A DNA stretch of 64,000 nucleotides from the NCBI RefSeq assembly GCF_000178155.2, contig NZ_ADKM02000062.1:1-64000 (forward strand). Reading direction: 5' to 3'. The position numbers were made by a program, and so were the translations under genes. The first letter of the stretch is position 1; the number at the start of each line of letters is the position of its first letter. Shown here piece after piece: positions 14,167 through 30,350 of this stretch. A model generated the notes under the pieces. That model was not told the DNA's origin. It saw only the letters and a list, made by a program, of their open reading frames with translations, and searched no databases. The stretch is from Hominimerdicola alba 8. Lineage in GTDB: Bacteria; Bacillota; Clostridia; Oscillospirales; Ruminococcaceae.

Positions 14167-14225
14167 TGAATTGTAAAAATCGAATATTTCACGGTGACTG
14201 ACACCGATAGAAAGGAAGCATGGTT

Positions 14226-14471: not shown

Positions 14472-14492
14472 GTCTAAGCGCGGCTGACGGCT

Positions 14493-14597
14493 AAGACCTG
14501 AAATTTAACAGCGACAAGCATCTCCTGACGCCGAAAAGTTCTTTGAGGCGAAAGCAGCAAGCACTATACGGCTTCGTGCAGATCGGCGCGGGGTCTT
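14493..14597 (+). promoter_or_regulatory. Structured 5' leader of hydF, riboswitch candidate
   Basis: AAGACC (14493-14498) can pair with GGTCTT (14592-14597), enclosing at least two hairpins: CGCC/GGCG (14529-14550) and GCAC/GTGC (14561-14579). The layout resembles a multi-branch aptamer, and an intrinsic terminator follows directly. I could not assign it to a known riboswitch class. Confidence 0.45.
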
Positions 14598-14609
14598 TAT
14601 CGGTATACT

Positions 14610-14656
14610 TACCCGTGTTTTCTGAGGAAGGAGAACACGGGTATCTTTTATGCTTT
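14610..14656 (+). terminator. Terminator before hydF (possible attenuator)
   Basis: TACCCGTGTT (14610-14619) pairs perfectly with AACACGGGTA (14634-14643), followed by TCTTTTATGCTTTTT. It lies between the TM1266-like gene and hydF, which are otherwise expected to be co-transcribed, so it may be conditional. Confidence 0.8.
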
Positions 14657-14687
14657 TTACAGTTTTTTCACAAAGGAGATGAAGGGA

Positions 14688-15878
14688 ATGGGACTTAATG
14701 ACACACCCTCCGGCGAGAGGGTACACATCGGATTTTTCGGGCGCAGGAATGCGGGAAAATCAAGTGTGGTGAACGCATTTACAAATCAGGAACTGGCGAT
14801 AGTTTCCGACACGCCCGGCACTACCACCGACCCTGTATACAAGGCGATGGAACTTCTGCCGATGGGACCTGTGATGATAATCGACACACCCGGTTACGAT
14901 GACGAGGGCGAACTGGGCGAACTGAGAGTAAAAAAGACGGTGCAGGTGCTTGGCAAGACCGACTGTGCGGTGCTGGTGACAGACTGCACGCGCGAACTCG
15001 ATGACAGCGAAAAACAGCTGACAGAACTTTTCGTGCAGAAGAAGATACCTTATATAATAGCGAAGAACAAGTCTGACCTGCTGGAAAGCGTACCACAGGC
15101 GGGCAGTAACGAGATATATGTCAGTGCGCTGAACAAGACTAACATCAACGAGCTGAGAGAACTTGTCGGCAGGCTCAGCAATGTGAAAGAGCAGGAAGAC
15201 CCGCTGGTGGGCGACCTTGTCAAGGCGGGCGAACTGGCGGTGCTGTGCATACCGATAGACAAGGCGGCACCAAAGGGCAGGCTGATACTTCCGCAGCAGC
15301 AGGTGATAAGAGATCTGCTGGAGCATGGCGCGGCGGCGCTCACCTGCCGTGAAACTGAACTGAAAGGCTATCTCGAACAGCTTAACCCTAAGCCTGCTGT
15401 GGTCATAACCGACAGTCAGGTGTTTGCAAAGGCGAATGCCGACACACCTGCTGACATCAAGCTGACTTCATTCTCGATACTCATGGCAAGGCACAAGGGA
15501 TTTTTAGAGATCGCTGTGCGCGGCGCTAAGGCGATAGACACACTAAAGGACGGCGACAGGATACTTATCTCGGAGGGGTGTACACACCACCGTCAGTGCG
15601 AGGATATAGGCACTGTAAAACTTCCGAAACTGCTGAAAAAGTACACGGGTAAAGAGTTCAGGCCGGAATTTTCATCGGGCAGAGAGTTTCCCGATGACCT
15701 TAGCGACTTTGCACTGGTCATACACTGCGGCGGCTGTATGCTCAATGCCCGCGAGATGCAGAGCAGGATGCAGACTGTCGAAGACGCGGGCGTGCCTGTC
15801 ACAAACTACGGCACAGCTATCGCATACATGAACGGTATACTGAAAAGAAGTCTGGAGATACTGCCCGGACTTTTATAG
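14688..15878 (+). CDS. hydF: [FeFe]-hydrogenase H-cluster maturation GTPase HydF
   Basis: 396 residues. The N-terminal GTPase domain has Walker A GRRNAGKSS (18-26), DTPGTTTDP as switch, DTPGYDDEG as G3 and NKSD as G4. The middle dimerisation region leads to a C-terminal iron-sulfur domain with Cys298, His300, Cys347 and Cys350 in CTHH and HCGGC, the HydF C-x-H-x46-C-x-x-C pattern. HydF is the scaffold on which the diiron subcluster is built by HydE and HydG before transfer to HydA. The ATG at 14688 is chosen because AAAGGAG ends 9 bases upstream; the ATG at 14679 abuts the site. A leader with a terminator precedes it. HydG and the hydrogenase HydA are not in this window. Confidence 0.97.
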   Translation: MGLNDTPSGERVHIGFFGRRNAGKSSVVNAFTNQELAIVSDTPGTTTDPVYKAMELLPMGPVMIIDTPGYDDEGELGELRVKKTVQVLGKTDCAVLVTDCTRELDDSEKQLTELFVQKKIPYIIAKNKSDLLESVPQAGSNEIYVSALNKTNINELRELVGRLSNVKEQEDPLVGDLVKAGELAVLCIPIDKAAPKGRLILPQQQVIRDLLEHGAAALTCRETELKGYLEQLNPKPAVVITDSQVFAKANADTPADIKLTSFSILMARHKGFLEIAVRGAKAIDTLKDGDRILISEGCTHHRQCEDIGTVKLPKLLKKYTGKEFRPEFSSGREFPDDLSDFALVIHCGGCMLNAREMQSRMQTVEDAGVPVTNYGTAIAYMNGILKRSLEILPGLL

Positions 15879-15892
15879 AAAAGAGGTCAGCG

Positions 15893-16396
15893 ATGAAGAA
15901 TAAAGATGCTTTTCCATATGAAAAAACAGGTGCGAACGCAGACAAGTTCGCTGAGATAGACAAGTTTTTACAGCTGAACGCCCGTTTCAGCGGGGGCATG
16001 AACAAATTTAAAACAGTTCTGGGTTCTTTCGTCAACCGCGGAGGGAAAGCGCCCCTTGAAAGGGCTAAAAATATAGTGAACTCCGACGGTATTGACAGCG
16101 TTTATGACGACCTTATGCACTGCACGAGGATAGACAGGTGCGATATCTTTATCGGCAAAAAATACATTTTCAAACAGGGCATGTTCGTTTTCAGAATGAG
16201 TGATGTGCGCGAGTGCTATATAGTCGATGAAGCATCGGGCGATGACAACGAGTATCACTGCATGGTGGATATCAGCGATGAAACAGGTACCGATACACTT
16301 GAACTGAGAAAGCTGAGCATAATAAAAGTACAGCGTCAGCAGCAGTTTGAAACTATAAACAAACCCATCGAAGCGGCTAAGATAAGGCTGGAATGA
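15893..16396 (+). CDS. Unknown protein, paralogue 1 of 3 between hydF and hydE
   Basis: 167 residues, no clear transmembrane helix. It starts with YEKTGANADKFAEIDKFLQL and ARFSGG, matching the starts of the next two proteins (AEMYRAIDEYLRLTARFSP; QKYEKIDNFLALSARFSP). The shared middle reads LERAKNIVNSDGIDSVYDDLM. A C-terminal strand-rich part follows (FIGKKYIFKQGMFVFRMSDV). It appears to be a shortened paralogue in which the membrane segment of its sisters is missing. No family recognised. It follows hydF by 14 bases with an AGAGGT ribosome site. Its role is presumably linked to the island, but that rests on position alone. Confidence 0.75.
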   Translation: MKNKDAFPYEKTGANADKFAEIDKFLQLNARFSGGMNKFKTVLGSFVNRGGKAPLERAKNIVNSDGIDSVYDDLMHCTRIDRCDIFIGKKYIFKQGMFVFRMSDVRECYIVDEASGDDNEYHCMVDISDETGTDTLELRKLSIIKVQRQQQFETINKPIEAAKIRLE

Positions 16397-16428
16397 CAGT
16401 TCCCCCTGAAACATAACGGAGGTGCGGC

Positions 16429-17097
16429 ATGGACGGCAAAGAGATGATATCCTACTACGACATGGGCGGCAGAGATGCCGAGATGTACAGAGCGATAGAC
16501 GAATACCTGCGTCTGACAGCAAGGTTCAGCCCTGAAAATGTTGCGCGAAAAAGAAAGAAACTGCTGACGGTCACACTTGTCGGCGGTATACTGCTGTATG
16601 TATCTATCCCTGTCACACTGCTGACAGTTGGGTTCAAGATTCCCGCAGTGGGACCGGAATTTGTGATAGGCAATTTCCTGGTGGGCGTTTGGAGACTGGC
16701 AAGGCAGATATACGGTGTCGGTCCTTTCACTGAGATGGAGAGGGCTGAGAAAATAATCTCGGCGGACAGCCTTGAAAGGGTCTATAACGACTTTATACAT
16801 GCGAGACAGATGGGTGATACCAATATCAGGCTGGGCGAAGAATACATCTTCAAAAAGGACGACTGCCTTTACCGAATAAAGGACATACAACGCACCTATA
16901 TCAGGAAAGAGAACAGCGATGACAGCTGTCACTATTTCGCCAGCGCTGAGATACTGGACGAATGCGGCTTATGCCATGTCGATGTGAAAATGCTTCACGG
17001 TTTCAGCGAAAAGAAAATGCAGGCGCGTTTTGAGGAACTGACAGCGCCCATAGAACAGGCAAGATACAAGCAGAATAAATCGGAGGACAAGCTCTGA
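16429..17097 (+). CDS. Unknown membrane protein, paralogue 2 of 3
   Basis: 222 residues. The conserved N-terminal helix (MYRAIDEYLRLTARFSP) is followed by two hydrophobic segments: LLTVTLVGGILLYVSIPVTL and, more weakly, FVIGNFLVGVWRLA. The shared MERAEKIISADSLERVYNDF motif precedes a cytosolic C-terminal domain resembling that of paralogue 1 (LGEEYIFKKDDCLYRIKDIQ). An ACGGAGGTG ribosome site lies just upstream. Function unknown. Likely membrane-anchored with both ends in the cytosol. Confidence 0.75.
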   Translation: MDGKEMISYYDMGGRDAEMYRAIDEYLRLTARFSPENVARKRKKLLTVTLVGGILLYVSIPVTLLTVGFKIPAVGPEFVIGNFLVGVWRLARQIYGVGPFTEMERAEKIISADSLERVYNDFIHARQMGDTNIRLGEEYIFKKDDCLYRIKDIQRTYIRKENSDDSCHYFASAEILDECGLCHVDVKMLHGFSEKKMQARFEELTAPIEQARYKQNKSEDKL

Positions 17098-17128
17098 TAA
17101 CAGATGACAGAGGAAAGAGGACAAAAAT

Positions 17129-17782
17129 ATGGACAACAAAGTTGATTTTTACAGGCGGCTCGACAGTGCTGATGCACAGAAGTATGAGAAGATAGACAAC
17201 TTTCTCGCACTTTCGGCAAGGTTCAGCCCCAAAAGGATAAGACAGAAGAAGATACTTACAATAACGCTTGTTGCGTTCATAGCGGCACTGTTTCTGTTTA
17301 TGTGCTTGGCGGCAGATGACCTGAGCGTCAGAATAATGAGCCTGCTGACCCTGCCTGCGCTTTTTGCCGGAGCATATTATAGTGTCAGAAAGCTGAACAA
17401 CAACTTCTTTCCCGAAATGGAAAGGGTAAACACGATAATCGAAACTGACGGCATCGACGCTGTATTTGAGGGGCTTATGAAGGCAAGGAACATGAGCGTG
17501 AGCGGGTGTTCTTCTGACGGCAGGTATGTATATATCGCAGGCAAGACCATGTGCAGGCTCGCAAACATACAGAAAGTAAGCAAGCGGTATGTTTCACACG
17601 GCAGGGGCGGGTCGTATCACGTTTTTATCGAAGTTGCTGACGAGATGGGTCTGAATGAGATAGACCTGAAACAGCTGAGAGGTCTGCCGATGACGCAGGA
17701 TAAAGAGTTACAGCGGATAAATGCTGAGATAACGATAATGAAGTTTGCTTTGGAAAAAGCGGAAAAACAGGGTGAAATGTAA
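17129..17782 (+). CDS. Unknown membrane protein, paralogue 3 of 3
   Basis: 217 residues. The N-terminal helix with IDNFLALSARFSP precedes two transmembrane helices (ILTITLVAFIAALFLFMCLA; IMSLLTLPALFAGAYYSV). The MERVNTIIETDGIDAVFEGLM motif and a C-terminal strand-rich domain (YVYIAGKTMCRLANIQKV) follow. Its stop codon shares one base with the hydE start (TAATG), so it is translationally coupled to hydE. That coupling is the best evidence that the three paralogues belong to the cofactor island. No known family. Confidence 0.75.
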   Translation: MDNKVDFYRRLDSADAQKYEKIDNFLALSARFSPKRIRQKKILTITLVAFIAALFLFMCLAADDLSVRIMSLLTLPALFAGAYYSVRKLNNNFFPEMERVNTIIETDGIDAVFEGLMKARNMSVSGCSSDGRYVYIAGKTMCRLANIQKVSKRYVSHGRGGSYHVFIEVADEMGLNEIDLKQLRGLPMTQDKELQRINAEITIMKFALEKAEKQGEM

Positions 17783-18825
17783 TGGGCAGAGTAAGAGAGC
17801 TTATAGACAGGCTTGGTGAGAACAAACATCTTGACAAGGCTGAATGGGTGGAAGTGCTTTCTGGCTTCACCGATGAGGACAGGGAGTACGCGGCATCGCT
17901 GGCGCGTGAGATAAGTCTTGCGCACTACGGCAACAAGATATTCATACGCGGCATAGTGGAGTTCTCAAATATATGCAAAAACGACTGCCTTTACTGCGGC
18001 ATAAGGCGTTCAAATCAAAACGCACAGCGCTATCGGCTGACTGCTGAGGAGATATGCGAATGCTGTGACGAGGGGTATGAACTGGGTTTCCGCACATTCG
18101 TTCTGCAAAGCGGTGAGGATAAAAGCTATTCCACCGAGATGCTGTGCGGCATAGTAAGTAAGCTGAAAGAAAAGCACCCCGACTGCGCGGTGACCCTCTC
18201 GCTGGGCGAACTTGAATATGAGGACTACAAAGCTCTGCGTGAAGCGGGGGCTGACAGGTATCTGCTCAGGCATGAAACGGCGAACAAGGCGCACTACGAA
18301 AAACTCCACCCCGCCGAAATGTCGTGGGAACACCGCATGAAATGTCTGGAACAGCTGAAAGAACTGGGCTACCAGACAGGCGCGGGCATAATGGTAGGTT
18401 CGCCTTACCAGACGGTAGAGTGCATCGCTGAGGACATGCTGTTCTTTGAAAAATTCAAGCCCGAAATGATAGGTATAGGACCTTTTCTGCCCCACAAGGA
18501 CACGCCTTTCAAAGACGAGCCGAAAGGCAGTTACGAACTGACGCTGTTCCTGCTGAGTCTGTGCAGGATACTTCTGCCGAGAGTGCTTCTGCCTGCCACG
18601 ACTGCGCTGGGCACTATACACCCGCTGGGGCGCGAAGAGGGGGTAAAAGCGGGGGCAAACGTAATAATGCCCAACCTTTCGCCCACAGCGGTGCGCAAGA
18701 AATACATGCTTTACGACAACAAGATATGCACAGGCGATGAGAGCGCACAGTGCAGAGGCTGTCTTGAACAGCGCATGAAGTCCATCGGGTATGAGGTGGC
18801 AGTAACGAGAGGTGACTTTAAATGA
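17782..18825 (+). CDS. hydE: [FeFe]-hydrogenase H-cluster maturation radical SAM enzyme HydE
   Basis: 347 residues, the usual HydE length. The radical SAM motif NICKNDCLYCG places Cys65, Cys69 and Cys72 around the [4Fe-4S] cluster. LQSGEDKSY and RHETANKAHYEKLHP are typical of the HydE/biotin-synthase-like TIM barrel. MVGSPYQT and IGPFLPHKDTPF complete the barrel, as in HydE. A C-terminal CRGCLEQRM may hold the optional second cluster. HydE acts in building the azadithiolate-bridged diiron unit for HydF. The start is coupled to the preceding gene and the last four bases (ATGA) contain the start of the first nitrogenase-like H gene. This overlap ties H-cluster maturation and the nitrogenase-like genes into one mRNA. 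Confidence 0.95.
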   Translation: MGRVRELIDRLGENKHLDKAEWVEVLSGFTDEDREYAASLAREISLAHYGNKIFIRGIVEFSNICKNDCLYCGIRRSNQNAQRYRLTAEEICECCDEGYELGFRTFVLQSGEDKSYSTEMLCGIVSKLKEKHPDCAVTLSLGELEYEDYKALREAGADRYLLRHETANKAHYEKLHPAEMSWEHRMKCLEQLKELGYQTGAGIMVGSPYQTVECIAEDMLFFEKFKPEMIGIGPFLPHKDTPFKDEPKGSYELTLFLLSLCRILLPRVLLPATTALGTIHPLGREEGVKAGANVIMPNLSPTAVRKKYMLYDNKICTGDESAQCRGCLEQRMKSIGYEVAVTRGDFK

Positions 18826-19580
18826 TAAAATTTGCGATATACGGCAAGGGCGGCATCGGCAAGTCAACGATAGCCTGCAATATCTCGGCGGCGCTGGCGG
18901 CAAAAGGTCTTACGGTGATGCAGATAGGCTGTGACCCGAAAGCAGACTCGACTTCACTTTTACACGGCGGTGACAGGATACCAACTGTGCTTGACATGAC
19001 CAGAAAGACAGGCGGTAAATTCACGCTGGACGATGTGGTGTTCAGGGCTGAGTGCGGGGTGTACTGCGTTGAAGCGGGCGGTCCGATACCGGGTCTTGGC
19101 TGTGCGGGACGAGGTATAATAAACGCGCTGGAAAGTCTGGAAAAGCTGGGGGCTTATGAGAGGTTCAAGCCCGATGTAGTGATATACGATGTGCTGGGCG
19201 ATGTGGTATGCGGCGGTTTTTCCATGCCGATGCGCAAGGGCTATGCCGACAAGATATTCGTGGTCTGTTCGGGTGAGAAGATGTCGCGATATGCGGCGGC
19301 AAACATCTGCATGGCTGTGGATAATTTCAAGGGACGCGGCTATGCGGGTCTGGGCGGCATAATCCTCAACCGCAGAGGAGTCCCCGATGAGGACGATGCG
19401 GCGGCTGAACTGGCGGCTGACTTCGGCACTGAAGTGATAGGCACACTGGACAGGAGCGAGGATATACCGCTGGCGGAAGAGCGCGGCAAAACGATAGTCG
19501 CGAGTGCCCCCGACAGCGATACGGCGAAACAGCTGGAAGCGATCGCTGACAGCGTATATGCGGCTTGCGGAGGTGAGTGA
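18822..19580 (+). CDS. Nitrogenase-like iron protein (NifH homologue), set 1
   Basis: 252 residues. Walker [10 protein letters not shown] (residues 8-16) and the CDPKADST strand are as in Nif[10 protein letters not shown] and [13 protein letters not shown] hold the two cysteines (equivalents of NifH Cys97 and Cys132) that bridge the [4Fe-4S] cluster between subunits of the dimer. The arginine of CAGRG, the ADP-ribosylation site in NifH, is kept. It should be an ATP-driven electron donor to the D/K partner encoded next. It is shorter than NifH (about 290) at the C-terminus. Without nifB, nifEN or a true nifDK, it is best called a NifH/BchL/CfbC-type reductase of unknown target. The start overlaps hydE (ATGA). 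Confidence 0.93.
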   Translation: MIKFAIYGKGGIGKSTIACNISAALAAKGLTVMQIGCDPKADSTSLLHGGDRIPTVLDMTRKTGGKFTLDDVVFRAECGVYCVEAGGPIPGLGCAGRGIINALESLEKLGAYERFKPDVVIYDVLGDVVCGGFSMPMRKGYADKIFVVCSGEKMSRYAAANICMAVDNFKGRGYAGLGGIILNRRGVPDEDDAAAELAADFGTEVIGTLDRSEDIPLAEERGKTIVASAPDSDTAKQLEAIADSVYAACGGE

Positions 19581-19581
19581 T

Positions 19582-20895
19582 ATGCTGAAACAAGTCGGTC
19601 TTGACAGACCGCCCACAGTCAGGCTGGGCGATGCGGTGAACGGTGACTTCTTCGCGGGGGGACTTGAATACAATCCGCCAGCAAGGGGCGTGTGGAACAT
19701 AGTACACACAGGTATGCTGATACCCGAAACGCATGAGATATTCGCCTGCGCACAGGGCTGTCTGCGGGGCGTGATACTCACGGCGGCTGAGATGAACGCG
19801 CTGGACAGAATGAGCTGGATATCGGTATCCGAGCAGGATATGTTCGACGGCACACTTGAGAGCGATGTGACGGACGGTGTATGTGAGATACTTGAAAAAC
19901 TCCCCTGCCGTCCAAAACAGGTGCTTTTATACCTCAGCTGTATACACCTGTTCGCGGGGTGCGACTTTGATGTGATAATAGCGGAACTTTCAGAAAAATA
20001 CCCCGATATATACTTTGCCGACTGCTACATGACCCCCACCATGAGAAAGACTATCTCGCCCGATGCGAAGATGCGCGCACAGCTTTATGATGCGCTCAGA
20101 CCGATGGGACTTGACAGAAATTCGGTGAGCATACTGGGCAACGACAGGGCAACAGATGAAAACAGCGAACTGGTGAGGGTCATAAAGGATAACGGCTTTG
20201 TCCTGCGCGACCTGACAGCATGCACAAGCTATCAGGAATATCTTGACATGGCAAAAAGTTCGCTGAACATAGCTTATCTGCCCACTGCGCAGTTCGGGTG
20301 CGAAGAACTTTCGGCGCGGCTGGGGGCGCAGGCGATGTATCTGCCAAACAGCTTTGATGCTGACGAGATAAGGGCGAACATGGCAAAGCTGTGCGAAGCA
20401 CTTGGGGTAAACTGCCCCGACCTGACAGCAGAGGAAAATTCCGCAAAAGAAGCGCTGGCGGCGGCTAAGGAAGCTGTCGGTGATACGCCCATAGCCATCG
20501 ACTTCACGGCGGTGACTCAGCCGTTCGGACTGGCGGAACTGCTTGTCCGTCACGGTTTTGATGTGAGATATATCGTCAATGACTGTCTTGGCGAGGACGG
20601 TGCGGCGTTTGAGCGGCTGAAAAGTCTTGCGCCCGACATCACCATATGTTCGGCAGTGAATGTGAACATGCTGGATTTCCCCGAACTCGAACATGAGCGG
20701 GTAATAGCAATAGGGCAGAAAGCGGCGCACTATTTTAACACCGACTATTTTGTTAACATAGTGCAGAACGGCGGATACTGGGGTTTTACAGGCATAAGCG
20801 CCATAGCCGATCTTATTGCGGGAGCCGCCCGCGCACCTAAAGACAGGCGCAGGCTGATATCCCACAAGGGCATCGGGTGCGAAAGCTGTATCTGA
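19582..20895 (+). CDS. Nitrogenase component 1-like protein, D-type, set 1
   Basis: 437 residues, homologous to the NifD/BchN/CfbD superfamily (oxidoreductase/nitrogenase component 1). Candidate cluster ligands are Cys56 and Cys60 (FACAQGC) and Cys120 and Cys127 (YLSCIHLFAGC). The EQDMFDGTLESDVTDGV segment resembles the E-x-D-x-V-x-G region of nitrogenases. The protein ends in GIGCESCI, a C-terminal C-x-x-C tail not typical of NifD. The ATG at 19582 follows CGGAGGTGA and comes one base after the H gene stop; an upstream in-frame start would overlap the H gene and is rejected. Its K partner is 424 bases downstream, behind a repeat insertion. Substrate unknown. Confidence 0.85.
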   Translation: MLKQVGLDRPPTVRLGDAVNGDFFAGGLEYNPPARGVWNIVHTGMLIPETHEIFACAQGCLRGVILTAAEMNALDRMSWISVSEQDMFDGTLESDVTDGVCEILEKLPCRPKQVLLYLSCIHLFAGCDFDVIIAELSEKYPDIYFADCYMTPTMRKTISPDAKMRAQLYDALRPMGLDRNSVSILGNDRATDENSELVRVIKDNGFVLRDLTACTSYQEYLDMAKSSLNIAYLPTAQFGCEELSARLGAQAMYLPNSFDADEIRANMAKLCEALGVNCPDLTAEENSAKEALAAAKEAVGDTPIAIDFTAVTQPFGLAELLVRHGFDVRYIVNDCLGEDGAAFERLKSLAPDITICSAVNVNMLDFPELEHERVIAIGQKAAHYFNTDYFVNIVQNGGYWGFTGISAIADLIAGAARAPKDRRRLISHKGIGCESCI

Positions 20896-21069
20896 CCACT
20901 TAATTTAAAGGCGTATGCAGTAACAACAGGCGGTGCGCAAAAAAATGTCGTATATTGTTTTATGGTCATCACGCCGACACACCTGACATTAACAATAGTT
21001 GGCGGTTCTCTTTTACCCAACGCAGGCGTGGAAAGAGAACATCTCAATAACGATCACTTGTTAAACATA

Positions 21070-21167
21070 TCCCAATTTGGTTGTGTATTGTTCCCCCGCC
21101 GAAGGCGGGGGAACAATACGAAAGAACAGCCATTTTGTATCATCAGCAATACACATCAAAAATGGGA
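21070..21167. repeat. Family C palindromic repeat, copy 1
   Basis: 98 bases from TCCCAATTTGG to AAAATGGGA, with the central palindrome GTATTGTTCCCCCGCC..GGCGGGGGAACAATAC. Nearly identical to 36250-36347. Confidence 0.8.
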
Positions 21168-21183
21168 GTTAAACATTTATACT

Positions 21184-21273
21184 TATAGCAATCCAACTAT
21201 TTAAATTCACAAAATCCAGTCGCAAAAGCTCGGATCTATGGATTTTGTCTGAATTTTAAGGCGGATCGCTATA
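21184..21273. repeat. Family A palindromic repeat, copy 3 (inverted, shortened)
   Basis: 90 bases, in the opposite orientation to the other three copies. It lacks about 13 bases (GGTTTTGTGACTG in the reverse sense) near the loop, consistent with a deletion between short repeats. Confidence 0.8.
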
Positions 21274-21319
21274 GTGGTGTTTAAATGGATGACCATATAT
21301 TATTTTACAGGAGTATTTT

Positions 21320-22483
21320 ATGAAAAATGTTAGCAGGATAATCCCCTGTTATGCGGCAGACACTTCGGGCGTATGCTCGGCGCTGTACGAATTCGGGGGA
21401 ATGACGGTGGTGCATGACGCATCGGGGTGCAATTCGACCTATTCCACCCACGATGAACCGCGCTGGTACGACCAACGTTCGATGATATATATTTCTGCGC
21501 TGACCGAACTTGACGCGGTCATGGGCAACGACGAAAAGCTGATAGCTGACATAGTTTCGGCTGCTAAAGACCGTTCGCCCGCATTTATAGCACTGTGCGG
21601 TTCGCCCATGCCGATGATGACAGGCTTTGACTACCGCGCGGTGGCTGAGGACATACAGCACCGCACAGGTATACCGACTTTCGGAATAGAAACAAACGGC
21701 ACGCGCTCGTATGTTGACGGCGCATCAAAGGCACTGCTGGCACTGGTGAGAGAGTTCGTGCATGACATGCCGAAAGACAGCTTTGAAGGCACAACTGTCA
21801 ATATCATCGGTGCTACACCCCTTGACTTTGGCATGACAGGCGCAGTCGAAAGCATGCGGAGATATTTCAGTGAGCACAAGATAAAGGTGATATCCTCGAT
21901 AGGCATGGGAAGCACCCTTGACGAGATACGCAAAGCGGCTTCGGCTAAAGTTGATCTTGTGGTGTCATACACAGGGCTTGAAACTGCGCGGTATATGGAA
22001 AAAGAGTTCGGCATACCCTATATCTGCGGTGTGCCTGTGGGAGAAACAGTGCAGGCGGAAACTTGCTGCGCTGCACTGCATGAGGCGGCGCATGGCGGCA
22101 GACCGATGTCAGTTATGTATCGCGGCAAGTGCGTCGAAGAAAAAGCCGAGCGTCTGGTAATAGGCGAAGCTGTGACGGCAGGTTCGATAGCATTTTCATG
22201 GCATATACTTACTCACAGTGCAGTCGATGTGATATGCCCACCCGATATCGATGCTCCCCTCAGCCCTGATAAAAAAGACCTGCCTTTGCTTTCGGAAGAT
22301 GAGATAACGGCTTATCTTTCGGATAACGGCATAAAAACGGTAGTCGCTGATCCGCTGTACAGATACATTCTGCCAGAGGGCTGCAAGCTGATCGAACTGC
22401 CGCACTTCGCGTTTTCGGGCAGATGCTTTGCAAGGGATATGCGCGATATCATCAACAATGTTAATAAGGAGTTTTTTGAATGA
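21320..22483 (+). CDS. Nitrogenase component 1-like protein, K-type, set 1
   Basis: 387 residues, short compared with NifK (about 520). The N-terminus carries Cys10, Cys19 and Cys37 in [14 protein letters not shown] and DASGCNST, followed by HDEPRWYDQ. It aligns with the K-type protein of set 2 through SGxCSxLYExGG, DEPRW, GATPL and the late LPHFAxSG. The component 1 fold is therefore clear, but the set of cluster ligands differs from NifK. It should pair with the D-type protein at 19582. RBS CAGGAG lies 7 bases before the ATG. Its last four bases overlap the next H gene, so set 1 and set 2 are translationally linked. Confidence 0.82.
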
Positions 22484-23244
22484 TAAAACTGGCGATATAC
22501 GGCAAGGGCGGCATCGGGAAATCCACCTGCACGGCAAATCTGGCGGCGGCGTTCGCTTCACTGGGCAAAAGGGTGATACAGATAGGCTGTGACCCCAAAG
22601 CAGATTCCACCATTAACCTGCTGGGCGGCACACCTGTCACCCCTGTGATGGACTACATGCGCGAACACGATGACGAGCCGACTTCCATTGAAGAGATAAG
22701 CAAGGTGGGCTACGGCGGCATACTCTGCATCGAAACAGGCGGACCAACACCAGGTCTTGGCTGTGCGGGACGCGGCATAATAACCACCTTCGCACTGCTG
22801 GAAGAACTTGAACTCTTCGAGAAATTCAAACCCGATGTGGTGCTTTACGATGTGCTGGGCGATGTGGTCTGCGGCGGATTTGCCGCCCCCATACGCGAGG
22901 GCTATGCCGACAAGGTGCTTATAGTGACTTCGGGCGAGAAGATGGCGCTGTATGCAGCAAACAACATCAACAAAGCGGTGAAGAACTTCGAGGACAGAAG
23001 CTATGCAAAGGTGCGCGGCATAATAATGAACCGCAGGGCTGTCGAGAACGAGGAAGAGAAAGTCAGGGCTTTTGCCGAAAGTGCAGGGCTTGATGTTGCG
23101 GCTGATATCCCACGTTCGGCTGACATAATAAAGTACGAGGATATGGGCAAAACCGTCATTGAGGGCGACCCCGAATGTGAAACCGCAAAGCGTTTCTTCG
23201 GGCTGGCAAAACTGCTTATTGCGGAGGACGAAGCTAATGGTTGA
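22480..23244 (+). CDS. Nitrogenase-like iron protein (NifH homologue), set 2
   Basis: 254 residues. Walker [18 protein letters not shown], and both cluster cysteines in GLGCAGRGI and [13 protein letters not shown] are kept. It is clearly a paralogue of the set 1 protein: the same length, and the FKPDVV and [12 protein letters not shown] blocks are shared, but the C-terminal third differs. Two distinct H proteins argue for two distinct partners rather than simple duplication. It starts within the K1 stop region (ATGA) and overlaps the next gene by 8 bases. Confidence 0.93.
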
Positions 23245-24523
23245 AGCATATTACATCACGGCGGCAGAACTGGCGGAAAAGGGCTTTGAGAACACGCCCG
23301 ATGAACTGATGAGTTCAAAGCACATGATATACAGTTCACCTGCCACGCTGGATTTCAACTCGCCCGGTGCTAAGGGTTTCGGCGTAAAGCGTGCGGGTCT
23401 GGCAATACCCGGTTCGGTGATGCTGCTGGTAGCACCCGGCTGCTGCGGACGAAACACCGCTCTGCTGAACGAACTTGGCTACAACGAGAGGTTTTTCTAT
23501 CTTCTGCTGGACGATACCGACATCGTTACAGGCAGGCATCTTACTAAGATACCCAAAGCCTGCAAGGAAGTCTGTGACAGCCTTGACTACACGCCAACGG
23601 CAGTGATGATATGTATAACCTGCGTTGATGCACTGCTTGGCACTGACATGGAGAGAGTCTGTCGAAAGTGTGAGGAAGCGACAAGCGTCCCCACACTGCC
23701 TGCATACATGTATGCGCTGACCAGAGAAAAGCGTCTGCCGCCGATGGCAGGCATACGCAAGTCGGTATACGGTCTGCTGAAACCGCAGAAAAGGCGCGGC
23801 GACCGCTGTAATATACTGGGCTATTTCTCGCATCTCCATGACAGCTGTGAACTTTACAACCTGCTTAAGTCGGTAGGGGTAAGCACACAGGAACTTTCGC
23901 GCTGTGACACCATAGAGCGCTACCACGAACTTTCAAGCGCCAACTTCAACCTTGTCATAAACCCCGAAGCCAGATACGCCGCACAGGATATGGAAAAGCG
24001 GCTGGGCATACCGTTCATAGAGATAAACAGGTTTTACCGCATAGACAAAATACGCAATCAGTACCGCCTGCTTGGTCAGGCGTTGGGTGTGCAGTTTGAA
24101 GACGGCAAATTCTATGACGCGGCAAAGAAGTCAGCAGAGGACTTAGCGGCAAAGCATGGCACTGTCAGATTTGCGGTGGGCGAATGCGTAAATGCTGACA
24201 GCTTTGAACTAGCCCTTGCGCTGACAGAGTACGGTCACAAGGTAAGTGAGATATACGGCACAGTGGGTGAGCGCAATTTCTTCTATATAAAAAAGCTGGC
24301 GGAACTTTCGCCCGATACAAGGATATTTACAAATCTTTCACCGACTATGCTGAACTATGAGCGCAAAACTGAGATAGATGTCACCATCGGCGTAGATGCG
24401 GGCTACTATCACCCCGACCTGCCCAATGTGCCGTTCAATGATGAAGAACAGCCTTTCGGTTATGAGGGCGTGTCACTTCTGGCAGAACAGCTTTCAAAAG
24501 CACTTGAAAAGGAGGGTAAGTGA
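23237..24523 (+). CDS. Nitrogenase component 1-like protein, D-type, set 2
   Basis: 428 residues. [16 protein letters not shown] near residues 59-74 resembles the first P-cluster-ligand region of NifD-type proteins. A second cysteine group follows ([21 protein letters not shown], from residue 126), like the CPGGLIGDD region of nitrogenase. [13 protein letters not shown] provides the acidic region between them. A late [23 protein letters not shown] parallels the HYFNTDYFVN..GYWGFTG of set 1. The ATG at 23237 has GCGGAGG upstream and overlaps the H2 gene by 8 bases. Cofactor and substrate unknown. Confidence 0.85.
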
Positions 24524-25545
24524 TGAAAAAACTGCTGAGATTTATTTCTCCCCTTGCCCCCGATGATTCGGGCGCATGTTCGGTGCTTTACGAACTGGGC
24601 GGCATAACGGTCATATGTGATGCGGGCGGCTGTGCGGGTAATGTCTGCGGTTTTGACGAACCGAGATGGTTCACCAAAAAGTCGGCACTGCTGAGTGCGG
24701 GGCTGAGAGATATGGACGCCATACTGGGCAGAGATGACCGCCTTGTGGCAAAGCTGGCGCGTGCGCAGGAACAGCTTGGAAGAGCGTTCACCGCAGTGGT
24801 GGGCACACCTGTACCCGCTGTTATCGCCACCGACTACAAAGCCATAGAACGCATGGCAGAAAAGAAAACAGGAGTTCACTGTATATGCGTGCCCTGTGAC
24901 GGCACAAAGCTGTACGACAAGGGCGAAGAGGACGCATATCTGGCGCTGTTCAAGCGTTTTGCACAGGATAAACTGCCCACAGAAAAAGGCACTGCCGCCG
25001 TGATAGGCGCGACACCCCTCAACACAGGCTTTGCCAAAGCTGACAGGATAACAGAAGTCATAAAGGCTGAGGGCTTTGATGAGGTAAAGTGCATCGGGCT
25101 TGACAGCGGACTAGATGAGATAAAGAACATATCGCGGTTCGAGAAAGTTTTCGTGACAGCGCCTTCGGGCATGAAAGCGGGGGCTTATCTTAAAGAAAGA
25201 TTCGGGCTTGATGTGACAGCACACGGCTGTCCGATACCGAAAGGATATGAGGACAAGCTGAAAGCGCTCGCACCTGCGGAAAAGACGCTGATAATACACC
25301 AGCAGTTCACGGCGAACGCGGTGCGCGAAATCATCGGCGGCGGTGTCTGCGGAACTTTCTTCAAGCTGGACGAAAGTGCGGCACAGGCGGGCGACTTCCA
25401 CATAGCTGACGAAGAGGACTTCGCTCAGAAGGCGATGGGCTTTGAGAGGATAATAGGAGATATCAGTCTTAAAAGGGCACTGCCCGACTTCGGCGGCGAA
25501 TGGATAGATCTGCCGCACTTCGCAGTGTCGGGAAAAATGTTTTGA
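24523..25545 (+). CDS. Nitrogenase component 1-like protein, K-type, set 2
   Basis: 340 residues, shorter than its set 1 paralogue. The N-terminus lacks Cys10 but has Cys19 (SGACS), Cys32, Cys37 and Cys42 (ICDAGGCAGNVCG), then DEPRWFTKK. The GATPLNTGF block and final DLPHFAVSGKMF match set 1. The start is ATG 24523, sharing one base with the previous stop and preceded by GGAGGG; a GTG one codon upstream is possible. It is followed after 15 bases by hypF, with no terminator between, so it is co-transcribed with the hyp genes. Confidence 0.82.
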   Translation: MKKLLRFISPLAPDDSGACSVLYELGGITVICDAGGCAGNVCGFDEPRWFTKKSALLSAGLRDMDAILGRDDRLVAKLARAQEQLGRAFTAVVGTPVPAVIATDYKAIERMAEKKTGVHCICVPCDGTKLYDKGEEDAYLALFKRFAQDKLPTEKGTAAVIGATPLNTGFAKADRITEVIKAEGFDEVKCIGLDSGLDEIKNISRFEKVFVTAPSGMKAGAYLKERFGLDVTAHGCPIPKGYEDKLKALAPAEKTLIIHQQFTANAVREIIGGGVCGTFFKLDESAAQAGDFHIADEEDFAQKAMGFERIIGDISLKRALPDFGGEWIDLPHFAVSGKMF

Positions 25546-25560
25546 TACGGAGCAACTAAA

Positions 25561-27867
25561 ATGAGAAAAACCGTTAATATACGCGCTTTCGGCATAGTGC
25601 AGGGCGTGGGTTTCAGACCGTTCACGGCGGTGGCGGCAGAAGAACTTGGGCTGGTCGGTACGGTGGCTAACAAGGGTTCGTATGTGGATATTATTGCTAC
25701 AGGCGAGGAAGAAGCGCTTTACACTTTCGCTGACAGGATAAAGCATGAACCGCCCGAAAGGGCGATGGTGCTGAGTGTTGATATAAGCGAAGCCGAGTAC
25801 ACCGAGTTTTCGGGATTTGAGATAATCGAGAGTGAAAAGGAGTACGGCGATATATTCGTTTCGCCCGATATTGCGACCTGCGATAAGTGCAGGGCAGAAC
25901 TGTTCGATAAAACGGACAGGAGATATCTTCACCCGTTTATAAACTGCACACAATGCGGTCCTCGCCTGACAATACTGGACACCATGCCATACGACCGCGA
26001 GCGCACCACCATGCGTGAACACCCGATGTGCAAAAAATGCGCCGCAGAATATCACGACCCGTCCACAAGGCGGTTCGATGCACAGCCTGTCTGCTGTAAC
26101 GAATGCGGACCTGAGGTGTATATAGTCGGCACAGATATTCGCGGCGGGGCAGCGATAACAGAAGTGCGCCGCGCCATCATGGAGGGAAAGATAGCGGCAA
26201 TAAAGGGTATAGGCGGTTTTCACCTGTGCTGTGATGCGCACAATGAAGATGCGGTGGCAAGGCTGAGAGAACTCAAAAAGCGCCCAGCAAAGCCGTTCGC
26301 ACTGATGATGAAAGACATCGGCACTGTACGGCGCGAATGTCATGTCCGCGCGGGACAGGAGGAATATCTCACAGGCTGGCAGAAGCCCATAATGCTTCTG
26401 AAAAAGCGCAGTACCACCACCATCAGCGAACTGATAGCCCCCCGCAACACGACAGTCGGAGTGATGCTGCCATACGCACCTGTGCAGATGCTTATTTTCG
26501 ACTACCCTGACGGGATACAGTTCAGCGACTGTCTGGTGATGACCAGCGGAAATGTGCGCGGCGCACCCATCTGCCGAAATGACGAAGATGCGCAAAAAGA
26601 GATAGGCGGCTTCTGCGACATAATGCTTTCGCATAACAGGCAGATACTTCTGCGGGCTGACGACAGCGTTTGCGACTGGCTGTTCGGCAGACCCTACATG
26701 ATACGGCGTTCGAGGGGATTTGCGCCCTTGCCGTTCATGCTGAAAAATAAGGATAACAGGCAGGTGCTTGCCATCGGCGGCGAACTGAAAAACTGCTTCT
26801 GCATAGCGCGGGGCGACCTGCTTTACCCCTCGCCTTATGTGGGCGACATGGCTGATATACGCACCGTCAAGGCGCTGGAAGAAAGCACCGAGCGCATGTG
26901 CGGTCTTTTGGAAGCCGAACCGCAGGTCATAGTCTGTGACACGCACCCTAAGTACAACACAGTGCGGGTGGCTGAGGAAATAGCGCAGAAGCGCGGCATT
27001 CCCCTGCTGAAAGTCCAGCACCACTACGCGCATATACTCTCCTGCATGGCTGAGAACGGCTATGAGGGCGAGGTGATAGGTGTCAGCTTTGACGGCACAG
27101 GCTACGGCGATGACGGCACGATCTGGGGCGGCGAACTGATGGTATGCAGCTACAAAGCCTACAGGCGCGTGGGAAGCATCAAGCCGTTCATACAGACGGG
27201 CGGCGACCTTTCATCGAAAGAGGGCTGGCGCATCGCTTCGGCACTGCTGAGGGACGCTTTCGGTGACGGCGGAGAGATACTCTGCCGCAAGCTGGGCATC
27301 TGCGAAACTAACGAGTACAAACTGCAAAAAGCGATGGCTGAGAAAGGTCTTAACAGCGTGCGCTCCACAAGCTGCGGGCGGCTGTTCGATGCGGTATCTG
27401 CCATACTGGGCATTGTCAGGACTTCGACTTTTGAGGGTGAGGCTTCCACCGCGCTGATGTGCGAGGCTGAGAAGTATCTTGAAAAGCACCCCGCCATCGC
27501 GGATAACTACCGCAAGCCCGAAAAACTCATAAAAGCGGACGAGGACTATGTGACCCTCTGCACTATGGTGCTGGCGGCGGATATTGCCGAACGCAGGCTT
27601 GCAGACTGTCAGGCTGGGGCGCTGGCATACACGTTCCATGCGGTGCTGGCTGACATGGTGACTGCCGCCTGTGTGAAGATAAGCGCTGACACGGGGCTGA
27701 AAACAGCCGCCCTCAGCGGAGGTGTCTTTCAGAACAGACTGCTGACGAGGCTGTGCTGTGACAGGCTGAGCGATGCAGGCTTCAGTGTGCTGACCCACAG
27801 TCTTGTACCGCCAAACGACGGCGGCATAGCGCTGGGTCAGGCGGCTTACGGCATATACAACGTCTGA
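25561..27867 (+). CDS. hypF: Carbamoyltransferase HypF (hydrogenase cyanide-ligand synthesis)
   Basis: 768 residues, full length. Domain order: acylphosphatase (GIVQGVGFRPF, 13-23), two zinc-finger units with C-x-x-C pairs (CDKC, CTQCGPR, CKKC, CNECGPE), a YrdC-like nucleotide-binding domain (IAAIKGIGGFHLCCDA), and a Kae1-like domain (VQHHYAHILSCMAENG, then GVSFDGTGYGDDGTIWGGE). HypF makes carbamoyl-AMP from carbamoyl phosphate and ATP and passes the group to the C-terminal Cys of HypE for dehydration to cyanide. All key blocks are intact. Carbamoyl phosphate could come from carAB at 37-42 kb. The gene follows the nitrogenase-like K2 gene by 15 bases. Confidence 0.97.
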   Translation: MRKTVNIRAFGIVQGVGFRPFTAVAAEELGLVGTVANKGSYVDIIATGEEEALYTFADRIKHEPPERAMVLSVDISEAEYTEFSGFEIIESEKEYGDIFVSPDIATCDKCRAELFDKTDRRYLHPFINCTQCGPRLTILDTMPYDRERTTMREHPMCKKCAAEYHDPSTRRFDAQPVCCNECGPEVYIVGTDIRGGAAITEVRRAIMEGKIAAIKGIGGFHLCCDAHNEDAVARLRELKKRPAKPFALMMKDIGTVRRECHVRAGQEEYLTGWQKPIMLLKKRSTTTISELIAPRNTTVGVMLPYAPVQMLIFDYPDGIQFSDCLVMTSGNVRGAPICRNDEDAQKEIGGFCDIMLSHNRQILLRADDSVCDWLFGRPYMIRRSRGFAPLPFMLKNKDNRQVLAIGGELKNCFCIARGDLLYPSPYVGDMADIRTVKALEESTERMCGLLEAEPQVIVCDTHPKYNTVRVAEEIAQKRGIPLLKVQHHYAHILSCMAENGYEGEVIGVSFDGTGYGDDGTIWGGELMVCSYKAYRRVGSIKPFIQTGGDLSSKEGWRIASALLRDAFGDGGEILCRKLGICETNEYKLQKAMAEKGLNSVRSTSCGRLFDAVSAILGIVRTSTFEGEASTALMCEAEKYLEKHPAIADNYRKPEKLIKADEDYVTLCTMVLAADIAERRLADCQAGALAYTFHAVLADMVTAACVKISADTGLKTAALSGGVFQNRLLTRLCCDRLSDAGFSVLTHSLVPPNDGGIALGQAAYGIYNV

Positions 27868-28005
27868 TAAGGAACATTTATCAAGGTGTTTTCTTTCCTC
27901 CGCCTGTGGTGGAAGGAAGAAAAGCGCCAACTATCAACAATACCCACTGAAAAGTTGTTTGATATGGTGTGGGATATCACATCAGAAAATAAGGAGGAAA
28001 TTCAA
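27868..28005. repeat. Palindromic spacer between hypF and hypC
   Basis: 138 bases with the stem CTTTCCTCCGCC/GGTGGAAGGAAG, flanked by ATCAAGGTG and TTTGATATGGTGTGGGATATC. The GC-rich central palindrome resembles those of families B and C, so this may be a relic of such an element. It ends in the hypC ribosome site AAGGAGG. Confidence 0.5.
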
Positions 28006-28215
28006 ATGTGTGTTGGTTTATCTGCAAAAGTAGTAAGTGTTAAGGACGGCACTGCGCTGATAGATGCGAACGGCGCAAAGCGCGAGGTAAGCGCCGACCT
28101 GCTGGAAGAACTTGAACCCGGCGATTACGTGATGGTACACGCAGGCGTTGCCATCGCGAAGATAACCGAGAGCGATGAAGACGAAGCTAACGATGTAATG
28201 GAGAATTTGTTATGA
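28006..28215 (+). CDS. hypC: Hydrogenase assembly chaperone HypC
   Basis: 69 residues of the HypC/HupF family. MCVGLSAKVV has Cys2, which after Met removal becomes the N-terminal cysteine that binds the iron of the Fe(CN)2CO unit with HypD. EPGDYVMVHAGVAIAKI is the family signature. In known systems it carries the iron group to the hydrogenase large subunit. No large subunit is in this window. The ATG at 28006 follows AAGGAGG; longer in-frame starts would displace Cys2 and are rejected. It overlaps hypD by four bases. Confidence 0.95.
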   Translation: MCVGLSAKVVSVKDGTALIDANGAKREVSADLLEELEPGDYVMVHAGVAIAKITESDEDEANDVMENLL

Positions 28216-29258
28216 ACGAACAGGCTAAAAAAGCGCGTGACATTATCACAAATTATAAGGGCAGACCGCTGAGGATAATGGAAGTCTGCGGCACCCACAC
28301 CCACGAGATATTCAGGCTGGGTCTGAGGAAACTTCTGCCCGAAAATGTTGAACTTATATCGGGACCGGGATGTCCCGTATGCGTGACACCTGTCGGCTTC
28401 ATCGACGAAGCTATCTGGCTGGCGCTGGAAAAGGGCTGTATCATCACCACTTTCGGTGACCTGATACGTGTACCCGGCACTGAGATGCCGCTGGCGGGCG
28501 CAAGGGCTAAGGGTGCGCAGGTAAGACCTGTCTACTCGCCGCTGGACGCAGTCGAAATGGCGCGGCAGAACCCCGATGAACAGATAGTTTTTCTGGCGGT
28601 GGGCTTTGAAACCACCACGCCGTCGGCATGTCTTGCAGTGGAAACAGCAAAGAAAGAGGGGCTTAAAAACTTCTCACTGCTGACCGCCAACAAGACCATG
28701 CCAAACGCCTACAACGCCCTTGAGGGCAGTGCAGATGCTTTTCTCTATCCGGGACATGTCAATGCCATAGCAGGCACAGAGATATGCGAAGAACTGAAAA
28801 AGCGCGGAGTTTCGGGTGTAGTTGCGGGCTTCACCGCAAGCGAACTGCTGACAGCGCTGGCTGTCATACTGGTGAACGCCGAAAAGGGCGAGCCGTTCTT
28901 TGTAAACTGCTACCCCCGCGTTGTCAAGGCAGAAGGCAATCCCTCAGCGCGTGAACTGGTAAAGCGCGTGATGGAACCCTGCGACACCGAATGGCGCGGT
29001 CTGGGCGTGATACCCATGTCGGGCATGAAACTGCGTGATGAGTTCGCAGAGTTCGATGCGCGCAAAAAATTCGGCATGCCGAAGATAACAGGCAAGCCGA
29101 ACCCAGCCTGCCGCTGCGGAGAAGTTTTGCAGGGTAAATGCAAGCCAAGCGACTGCAAGGTATTCGGCAAAGTCTGTACCCCCGAACACCCTGTCGGTGC
29201 CTGCATGGTATCGGACGAGGGCGCTTGCGCGGCTTATTATCAGTACGGCGGAGTATAA
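28212..29258 (+). CDS. hypD: Hydrogenase cofactor assembly protein HypD
   Basis: 348 residues, full length. MEVCGTHTHEIFR (Cys26), SGPGCPVCVTP (Cys54 and Cys57) and GFETTTPS are the three HypD signature blocks. The C-terminus contains the [4Fe-4S] cysteines in CRCGEVLQGKC, CKVFGKVC and GACMVSDEGAC. HypD with HypC is the scaffold where cyanide from HypE and CO are placed on iron. It is translationally coupled to hypC (ATGA). Confidence 0.96.
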   Translation: MNEQAKKARDIITNYKGRPLRIMEVCGTHTHEIFRLGLRKLLPENVELISGPGCPVCVTPVGFIDEAIWLALEKGCIITTFGDLIRVPGTEMPLAGARAKGAQVRPVYSPLDAVEMARQNPDEQIVFLAVGFETTTPSACLAVETAKKEGLKNFSLLTANKTMPNAYNALEGSADAFLYPGHVNAIAGTEICEELKKRGVSGVVAGFTASELLTALAVILVNAEKGEPFFVNCYPRVVKAEGNPSARELVKRVMEPCDTEWRGLGVIPMSGMKLRDEFAEFDARKKFGMPKITGKPNPACRCGEVLQGKCKPSDCKVFGKVCTPEHPVGACMVSDEGACAAYYQYGGV

Positions 29259-29342
29259 ACAGACTTCATGGATAAAACGGCAGTAAAAAATCACTAGCGA
29301 AAGTACACTTTATCGTACAACAGCATAAAGGAGTAAATTGAA

Positions 29343-30350
29343 ATGGCAGAAAAAACAGTAACACTGGCACACGGCGCGGGCGGAAAACAGACCTCCGAAC
29401 TGATAGATCAGGTATTCAAGGCGCACTTCTCGAACCCGCAGTTCACCGCAGACGATGCGGCTGTGCTGAACATGGGCGAGGGCAGACTGGCTATGTCCAC
29501 CGACGGCTTCATCGTTTCGCCTTTTGAATTCAATGGCGGAAACATCGGCAAACTCAGCATTTGCGGCACAGTAAACGACCTGAGCTGCATGGGCGCAAAG
29601 CCCCTCTACATGACATGCGCTTTCGTCATCGAAGAAGGCTTCCCACTTGACAAGCTGGAAGAGATAGCGGCTTCGATGGAAAAGACCGCCAACGAAGTCG
29701 GCGTTAAGATAGTTGCAGGCGATACTAAAGTCGCAGGCAAGGGTCAGGTGGATAAGATATTCATAACCACCACAGGCATCGGTAAAATAATGGACAATGC
29801 AGACACCTCAGGCACTTACGCAAAGCCTGGTGATGCTGTTATCGTGACGGGCGATGTGGGCAGACACGGCTGTACTATCCTGCTGGCGCGTGACGAATAT
29901 GGCATAGATGCTGATGTTGACAGCGATTGCGCACCGCTCTGGGGAACAGTCGAAAGCCTTTACACCGTCACCAACGAGATACACACCATACGCGATGCCA
30001 CACGCGGCGGCGTGGGTACAGTCCTCTACGAGATAGCCGAGCAGAGCGGCGTGGGCGTTCGCCTTAATGCGGCTGACATACCCGTAGACCCCGCAGTTAA
30101 GGGCGTTTGCGGCATGCTGGGTCTTGAACCCCTCTACCTTGCTTGTGAGGGCAGACTTGTCATAATCGCCCCGAAAGACAAAGCGCCCGCGCTGGTCGAG
30201 AAACTGCGCGAGGGCAAGTATTCTAAGAATGCGGCGATAATAGGCGAGATAACCGCCGATAACGCAGGAAGAGTCGTTATGGAGACCGAGATAGGCGCAC
30301 AGACGATGCTGCCTCAGCCGGGCGGCGAACTTCTGCCGAGAATTTGCTAA
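29343..30350 (+). CDS. hypE: Carbamoyl dehydratase HypE
   Basis: 335 residues of the PurM-like ATP-binding family. The start VTLAHGAGGKQTSELI, the TDGFIVSPFEF block and GTVNDLSCMGAKPLY are HypE-specific. The protein ends in LLPRIC, with the C-terminal cysteine that receives the carbamoyl group from HypF and turns it into thiocyanate. Presence of this terminal Cys indicates an active cyanide donor. It has its own AAAGGAG site, 84 bases after hypD, and is followed by a strong terminator, so it closes the island. Confidence 0.97.
   Translation: MAEKTVTLAHGAGGKQTSELIDQVFKAHFSNPQFTADDAAVLNMGEGRLAMSTDGFIVSPFEFNGGNIGKLSICGTVNDLSCMGAKPLYMTCAFVIEEGFPLDKLEEIAASMEKTANEVGVKIVAGDTKVAGKGQVDKIFITTTGIGKIMDNADTSGTYAKPGDAVIVTGDVGRHGCTILLARDEYGIDADVDSDCAPLWGTVESLYTVTNEIHTIRDATRGGVGTVLYEIAEQSGVGVRLNAADIPVDPAVKGVCGMLGLEPLYLACEGRLVIIAPKDKAPALVEKLREGKYSKNAAIIGEITADNAGRVVMETEIGAQTMLPQPGGELLPRIC

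Follow-up and report, generated by a model that had tools for sequence, protein, structure and literature searches.

A nitrogenase-like and hyp gene operon as a probable HydG-independent route to [FeFe]-hydrogenase maturation

In the maturation of [FeFe]-hydrogenases, the CO and CN ligands of the H-cluster are attributed to HydG, which supplies an Fe(CO)2(CN) unit. The current HydG–HydE–HydF model is set out in the accessible text of PMC11736057. Dos Santos et al. (2012, PMC3464626) described two linked NifHEN-like sets in Coprococcus catus and Dorea longicatena; in the accessible part of that paper, such proteins of C. catus and further Firmicutes are associated with proteins that mature hydrogenases, and a possible role in metallocluster assembly is considered. 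For acetogens, the accessible part of a 2022 study (PMC9431212) reports that five of eight organisms have HydE and HydF but no typical HydG, for which mechanisms 'not yet identified' are considered, and that five of eight have HypCDEF but neither HypA nor HypB. A full-text literature search, with most subscription papers outside its reach, found no paper joining the association of NifHEN-like and maturation genes with a missing HydG. Here we analyze the first 64,000 nucleotides of contig NZ_ADKM02000062.1 of Hominimerdicola alba 8 (hereafter the window), which hold an operon of two nitrogenase-like gene sets, H1-D1-K1 and H2-D2-K2, together with hydE, hydF and hypFCDE, and we conclude that this operon probably encodes a HydG-independent pathway of [FeFe]-hydrogenase maturation.

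The genome of the window (G000) is 4.05 Mb in size and 98.8% complete. An earlier note made from the sequence of this DNA had described the gene order H1-D1-K1-H2-D2-K2-hypF-C-D-E at 18822–30350; open reading frames (ORFs) and family profiles recovered all ten genes there, and the coordinates bear out its placement of hypF 15 bases behind K2. As a complete unit that interval is too short, as the genes for the TM1266-type regulator, HydF, u1–u3 and HydE (14220–18825) belong to it as well. The operon comprises the following features:

14220–14471, + strand: TM1266-type [FeFe]-hydrogenase system regulator (TIGR03959, 111.5 bits, cut-off 60.8; PF21699)
14679–15878, + strand: HydF, GTPase scaffold for H-cluster maturation (TIGR03918, 551.5 bits, cut-off 325.55)
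15893–17782, + strand: u1–u3, three small serial proteins of unassigned function (ORFs; u1 without a Pfam match)
17782–18825, + strand: HydE, radical S-adenosylmethionine maturase (TIGR03956, 567.9 bits, cut-off 254.6)
18822–19580, + strand: H1, NifH-like ATP-driven reductase (PF00142, Fer4_NifH, 281 bits)
19582–20895, + strand: D1, nitrogenase component 1-like (PF00148, 1.3e-16)
21320–22483, + strand: K1, short nitrogenase component 1-like (PF00148, 4.5e-31)
22480–23244, + strand: H2, second NifH-like reductase (PF00142, 294 bits; motifs)
23237–24523, + strand: D2, nitrogenase component 1-like (PF00148, 5.4e-27; structure model)
24520–25545, + strand: K2, shortest component 1-like subunit (PF00148, 3.8e-15; structure model)
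25561–27867, + strand: HypF, carbamoyltransferase (TIGR00143, 731 bits, cut-off 466.1)
28006–28215, + strand: HypC, with N-terminal MCVG (PF01455, 1.5e-22; motif)
28212–29258, + strand: HypD, with CGTHTH and GPGCPVC motifs (PF01924, 1.9e-138; motifs)
29343–30350, + strand: HypE, ending in PRIC (AIRS and AIRS_C; C-terminal cysteine motif)

HydE and HydF both score far above their NCBIfam cut-offs, the four component 1-like proteins all exceed the PF00148 cut-off, and the window holds two sets of the P-loop and both cluster-cysteine motifs, one in each H protein. The end of hydE overlaps the start of H1 by 4 bases.

The genome lacks a HydG above the profile cut-off (TIGR03955; best match 183.5 bits against 312.15), and so does every other operon carrier searched. 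Three samples were used: 291 genomes of the class, searched for D2; a 40-genome panel, for the HydG, NiFe hydrogenase, HypD and HydA profiles; and a collection of one genome per species, in which D2 gave 453 matches and the best 80 loci were examined. HydG exceeded the cut-off in 26 of the 40 panel genomes, in none of the seven panel carriers and in none of the 18 and 50 carriers searched in the collection, that is, in 0/74 distinct genomes, one of the 50 (G356) being G210 again. The collection search covered the genomes of 68 of the 80 loci; the 12 omitted (L084, L088, L089, L090, L102, L104, L105, L107, L111, L121, L148 and L157) were chosen mostly for their short contigs. Matches below the cut-off in the 18 carriers reached 171–228 bits in open frames of 373–424 residues, which we take to be the size of ThiH.

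In the class sample (thresholds of E up to 1e-60 for HydF and 1e-90 for HydG), HydF was detected in 195 and HydG in 183 of the 291 genomes. Among HydF-positive genomes, HydG occurs in 0/7 carriers versus 177/188 others (Fisher p 1.7e-8), and in 0/10 versus 177/185 once genomes with H1-D1-K1 only are added (Fisher p 2.5e-12); both p values are uncorrected for phylogeny and overstate the significance, because the carriers are related. The 18 HydF-positive genomes without HydG are the seven carriers, three genomes with H1-D1-K1 only (G228, G069 and G142), G160, G280 and G283, and five that are less than 90% complete. Within genus g63, the operon and HydG replace each other: G058, G135, G158 and G200 have the operon without HydG, and G085 and G241 have HydG without a D2 match. 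That the operon replaces HydG is thus well supported by gene content. An assembly gap was considered as the cause of the missing HydG and rejected, as G121, a single contig that is 99% complete, has no HydG over the cut-off, nor does R. bicirculans 80/3, whose locus (L135) lies on a complete chromosome I.

The presumed client enzyme is present. The HydA profile PF02906 matches 39 of the 40 panel genomes, and one of its four matches in G000 reads TSCCPGW, IPCTAKKFE and EIMACPGGC. HydA with the three H-cluster motifs was found in each of the seven panel carriers and also in G142 and G069; the third motif pattern was not found in HydA of G228. In G158, 322 bases separate the end of the motif-bearing HydA ORF from the H2 ORF that follows. 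R. albus is a known H2 producer, and its strains AR67 and KH2T6 both have the operon, no HydG over the cut-off and no NiFe match. During glucose fermentation by R. albus, reducing equivalents are reoxidized via HydABC, according to the accessible text of PMC6288185 (citing Zheng et al. 2014), although strains may differ.

The Hyp proteins appear intact, and in most carriers no NiFe hydrogenase was detected for them to serve. Motifs were counted by six-frame search of each locus, in which some genes are cut and short motifs can match by chance; in loci holding the respective gene, the HypC MCxG motif is intact in 78/78, both HypD motifs in 78/78, the C-terminal cysteine of HypE in 67/68, and the HypF motifs GVGFRP, zinc-finger pattern and GGxFQN in 80/81, 80/81 and 69/81. 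The NiFe large subunit (PF00374) has no match in G000, in any of the seven panel carriers or in 47 of 50 further carriers tested (54/57 overall), those 50 being drawn from the 68 collection genomes searched for HydG. HypD occurs in 16 of the 40 panel genomes, namely nine with a NiFe hydrogenase and the seven carriers, and in a tree of chosen loci that carries a long-branch warning, the HypD proteins from 14 operon loci group together (100/99), separate from the nine NiFe-linked ones. The earlier note had suggested that the Hyp-made iron-cyanide-CO group may be a substrate, precursor or part of a cofactor for the nitrogenase-like proteins, to be sought as co-occurrence of D/K with hyp genes and abandoned if the genome held a NiFe hydrogenase and relatives never lay beside hyp genes. 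We saw the co-occurrence without NiFe hydrogenase in most carriers, and neither of the latter two findings emerged (the search did not extend to hypA and hypB). Strict linkage, intact Hyp motifs and the NiFe large subunit missing from G000 support a transfer of the Hyp-made unit to these proteins, and the note's interpretation is partly supported.

The operon is conserved as a group. Close D2 relatives occur in seven of the 291 class genomes, with 100% identity for the window's own and 51–64% for the other six. The 20-kb neighborhoods of these six hold the same gene set, partly rearranged, with H2-D2-K2 followed by hypF and more hyp genes, D1-K1 in 6/6 and HydF or TM1266 in 5/6; a separate H1 was not seen in the four neighborhoods from genus g63. 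Among the best 80 of the 453 collection loci, many of them on short contigs, we found D2 in 80, H2 in 79, K2 in 78, K1 in 76, HypF in 70, D1 in 68, H1 in 66, HypC and HypD in 67 each, HypE in 57, TM1266 in 56, HydE in 44 and HydF in 38. A hyp gene starts within 3 kb behind K2 in all 70 of these loci that have at least 1.5 kb there, and HydE, HydF or TM1266 lies within 5 kb upstream of D1 in all 52 that have at least 4 kb there, so that the grouping is not due to chance.

Named carriers include R. albus AR67 and KH2T6, R. bicirculans 80/3, Anaerostipes MSJ-23 and Clostridiaceae BL-3; D2 occurs in six of the 13 genomes of the genus of BL-3, including BL-3 and G210. In G362, which lies outside the HydG-searched set, the order is H2-D2-K2-hypF-C-D-E-H1-D1-K1, and the order and locus numbers given for hyp genes in PMC9431212 indicate that this genome is probably C. 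ljungdahlii. H1 and D1 are fused into one ORF of ~700 residues in two loci of one genus (L039, 10712–12805; L155, 5994–8093). The 424-base gap between D1 and K1 in the window (20896–21319) contains the inverted repeat CCCCCGCCGAAGGCGGGGG; D1 and K1 overlap in L135, and given this overlap the gap may be a small insertion. Relatives of u1, u2 and u3 were seen in six, six and five of 80 loci, restricted to the nearest relatives. The loci of the HydF-positive genomes G160, G280 and G283 are L058, L059 and L060, and HydE adjoins HydF in L058 and L060.

The D and K proteins resemble nitrogenase-type scaffolds in fold and cysteine pattern. In alignments of 29 sequences, C60 and C120 of D1 are invariant, C56 nearly so, and C37 of K1 is invariant; across 22 sequences, C68, C69, C125 and C128 of D2 and C38 and C43 of K2 are invariant. 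Two strict patterns of D2, PGCCGRN and C(I/V)TCVD, recur in 86/91 and 81/91 loci. Profile alignment places D2 C69 and C128 and D1 C120 at NifE bridging-cluster positions and K1 C37 at a NifN one; D1 C60 may occupy another, judging by its spacing. The Cys275-type ligand of the iron-molybdenum cofactor (FeMo-cofactor) is absent at the aligned site, which reads N in D2, L in D1 (versus NifE) and S in K1. AlphaFold 2 models of D2 and K2 (mean predicted local distance difference test scores, pLDDT, of 86.5 and 82.3) adopt the nitrogenase fold, and the best Protein Data Bank matches of K2 are NifEN chains. Conserved bridging-type cysteines, the absent cofactor ligand and the fold therefore make it likely that these proteins hold a bridging Fe-S cluster without FeMo-cofactor.

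Against the NCBIfam component 1 families (nitrogenase, dark-operative protochlorophyllide oxidoreductase (DPOR), chlorophyllide oxidoreductase and CfbD), the best scores are 17.5 bits for D1, 70.5 for K1, 62.7 for D2 and 31.9 for K2, with cut-offs of at least 268. The earlier note had proposed placing the proteins in a superfamily tree. In our 74-row tree of chosen rows, D1, D2 and importer-linked D relatives form one branch (100/100) and the K proteins another (100/100), both apart from NifD, K, E and N, BchN and B and a Mar-like pair, with deeper placing unsure owing to long branches. The D1 proteins sampled from Hyd-linked loci, whether these contain Hyp or not, form one branch of 13 (100/100). 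Ordinary nitrogenase, DPOR and CfbD were rejected as identities for D/K by the NCBIfam scores and the tree.

Outside this Hyd-linked branch, D1 relatives (L046–L049 and L168) adjoin a substrate-binding protein, a FecCD-type permease and an ATPase; the L048 ATPase was assigned by gene size and the L049 importer by its sequence. Of four importer-linked genomes tested, HydG is present in three; G141, the fourth, lacks both HydG and HydF. One of these loci (L168, 7000–13296) lies outside Clostridia, on plasmid pTS1 of Treponema saccharophilum, and combines H-D-K with an iron-type ATP-binding cassette (ABC) importer; its K is 33% identical to K1. G000 itself contains one further strong NifH-family protein, in a sulfur-linked cluster on contig C25 (L057, 4490–12003) that comprises another H-D-K set, a NifB-like protein, a cysteine synthase and a cystathionine-lyase-like enzyme. 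The H of this set exceeds the NifH cut-off and its D and K fall under the NifDK cut-offs; the cluster resembles that of methylthio-alkane reductase (Mar).

Taken together, we propose the following route. HypF and HypE would make cyanide from carbamoyl phosphate, and HypC–HypD would assemble an Fe(CN)x(CO) unit, which, because no NiFe hydrogenase is present, would pass to the nitrogenase-like complexes. We infer the chemical steps of these complexes and the division of labor between them: H2-D2-K2, tied to hypF, would take over or reductively remodel the Hyp product, and H1-D1-K1, tied to hydE, would supply CO by low-potential reduction or swap a CN ligand for CO. The outcome would be an Fe(CO)2(CN)-type unit matching what HydG makes, from which HydE and HydF would build the [2Fe] subcluster in the usual way. 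To our knowledge, no member of the nitrogenase superfamily is known to perform chemistry on an iron-carbonyl-cyanide unit.

Several observations weigh against a HydG-independent pathway of this kind. G228, G069 and G142 have neither HydG nor HypD and carry only a Hyd-clade H1-D1-K1 plus a metal-complex ABC importer (L050, L051 and L052; Peripla_BP_2-type binding protein, BtuC/FecCD-type permease and ATPase), so Hyp is not the sole partner. On our reading, D1K1 would act as the invariable step beside HydE, with D2K2 as the Hyp-side step, and an imported iron complex might stand in for the Hyp product in this variant. G069 has two HydE-like genes, one adjoining H1-D1-K1 (L051, 901–1938) and one adjoining HydF (L062, 7459–8520). 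The operon does not always explain a missing HydG, as G160, G280 and G283, all HydF-positive and at least 98% complete, have neither HydG nor a D2 match; conversely, six class-sample genomes have HydG without HydF, so single-gene absences arise there for other reasons. HydE and HydF were seen in only 44 and 38 of the 80 loci, where many contigs are cut short and the remainder was not searched genome-wide, and HydF of G121 lies ~0.6 Mb from the operon. The carriers are also kin, the seven in the panel representing four genera and three families. A NiFe-type match, short and in frames of 361–366 residues, occurs in 3/50 carriers. Finally, the accessible part of PMC9431212 gives each acetogen, one of which probably carries the cluster, one group 1a NiFe hydrogenase, and, for all its acetogens but one, points to an atypical HydG as a candidate.

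Those NiFe-type matches and the group 1a enzymes could suggest that a NiFe hydrogenase is the client of HypCDEF, the linkage being incidental. We consider this most improbable, as no match was found in 7/7 and 47/50 carriers and the operon HypD forms its own branch; for G000, which has no PF00374 match, the explanation is rejected, and likewise for the 47. It is unlikely that D1K1 and D2K2 are new catalysts that carry Hyp-made Fe(CN)2CO themselves, unrelated to H-cluster assembly: the strict linkage of H2-D2-K2 to hyp genes (70/70) and the lack of NiFe matches in most carriers tested would suit such enzymes, but the linkage to HydE, HydF or TM1266 (52/52 loci) and the exclusion of HydG (0/74 carriers) are left unexplained. 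This reading is close to that of the earlier note. HypCDEF are established to make an Fe-bound CN/CO unit, and the nearest D1K1 relatives adjoin Peripla_BP_2/FecCD importers, which would agree with HypCDEF alone supplying the diatomic ligands to HydE and HydF while the nitrogenase-like complexes merely reduce Fe-S clusters or supply iron. The three HydG-less genomes with D1K1 and no HypD, in which D1K1 and not Hyp is the constant element, make this improbable too.

If a HydG-free route exists, it changes the picture of H-cluster biosynthesis, with a D2 marker matched 453 times at one genome per species, including in H2-producing R. albus; it would also reveal what an orphan branch in the nitrogenase superfamily does and provide a tyrosine-free way to organometallic cofactors. 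It likewise bears on the question, raised in the accessible part of PMC9431212, of how hydrogenases mature in acetogens without a typical HydG. We put forward more tentatively that it represents a second, wholly different H-cluster biosynthesis, in which Hyp cyanide and two ATP-driven nitrogenase-like enzymes act on an iron-carbonyl-cyanide unit. It might be used in R. albus-type rumen bacteria and C. ljungdahlii-type gas fermenters, with a sister variant (H1-D1-K1, a siderophore/heme/B12-type importer and no HypD) taking its iron complex from outside.

Compared with HydE–HydF–HydG maturation, HydE, HydF and the TM1266 regulator are present and linked in the window and HydA is present, whereas HydG is absent. 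HypC, D, E and F share their intact motifs with HypABCDEF NiFe maturation, but G000 has no NiFe large subunit match and its HypD falls on a separate branch. The fold and bridging-cluster cysteine positions recall NifEN, the FeMo-cofactor scaffold, in contrast to the placement of D/K on their own 100%-support branches, distinct from those of Nif, Bch and the Mar-like pair. The NifHEN-like pairs of C. catus and D. longicatena, compared here by the description in the accessible part of PMC3464626, share the two linked sets and a similar cysteine pattern. As in Group IV of that description, there are two cysteines in D/E (D1 C60 and C120), one in K/N (K1 C37), no cofactor ligands and linked pairs, whereas D2 and K2 have further conserved cysteines. 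The earlier note knew of no described system of such composition; this holds in part, as the two-set arrangement was partly described in 2012. HydG and HypD are not mentioned in the accessible part of that paper, to which our analysis adds which maturases are involved, that HydG is excluded and that a NiFe hydrogenase is absent.

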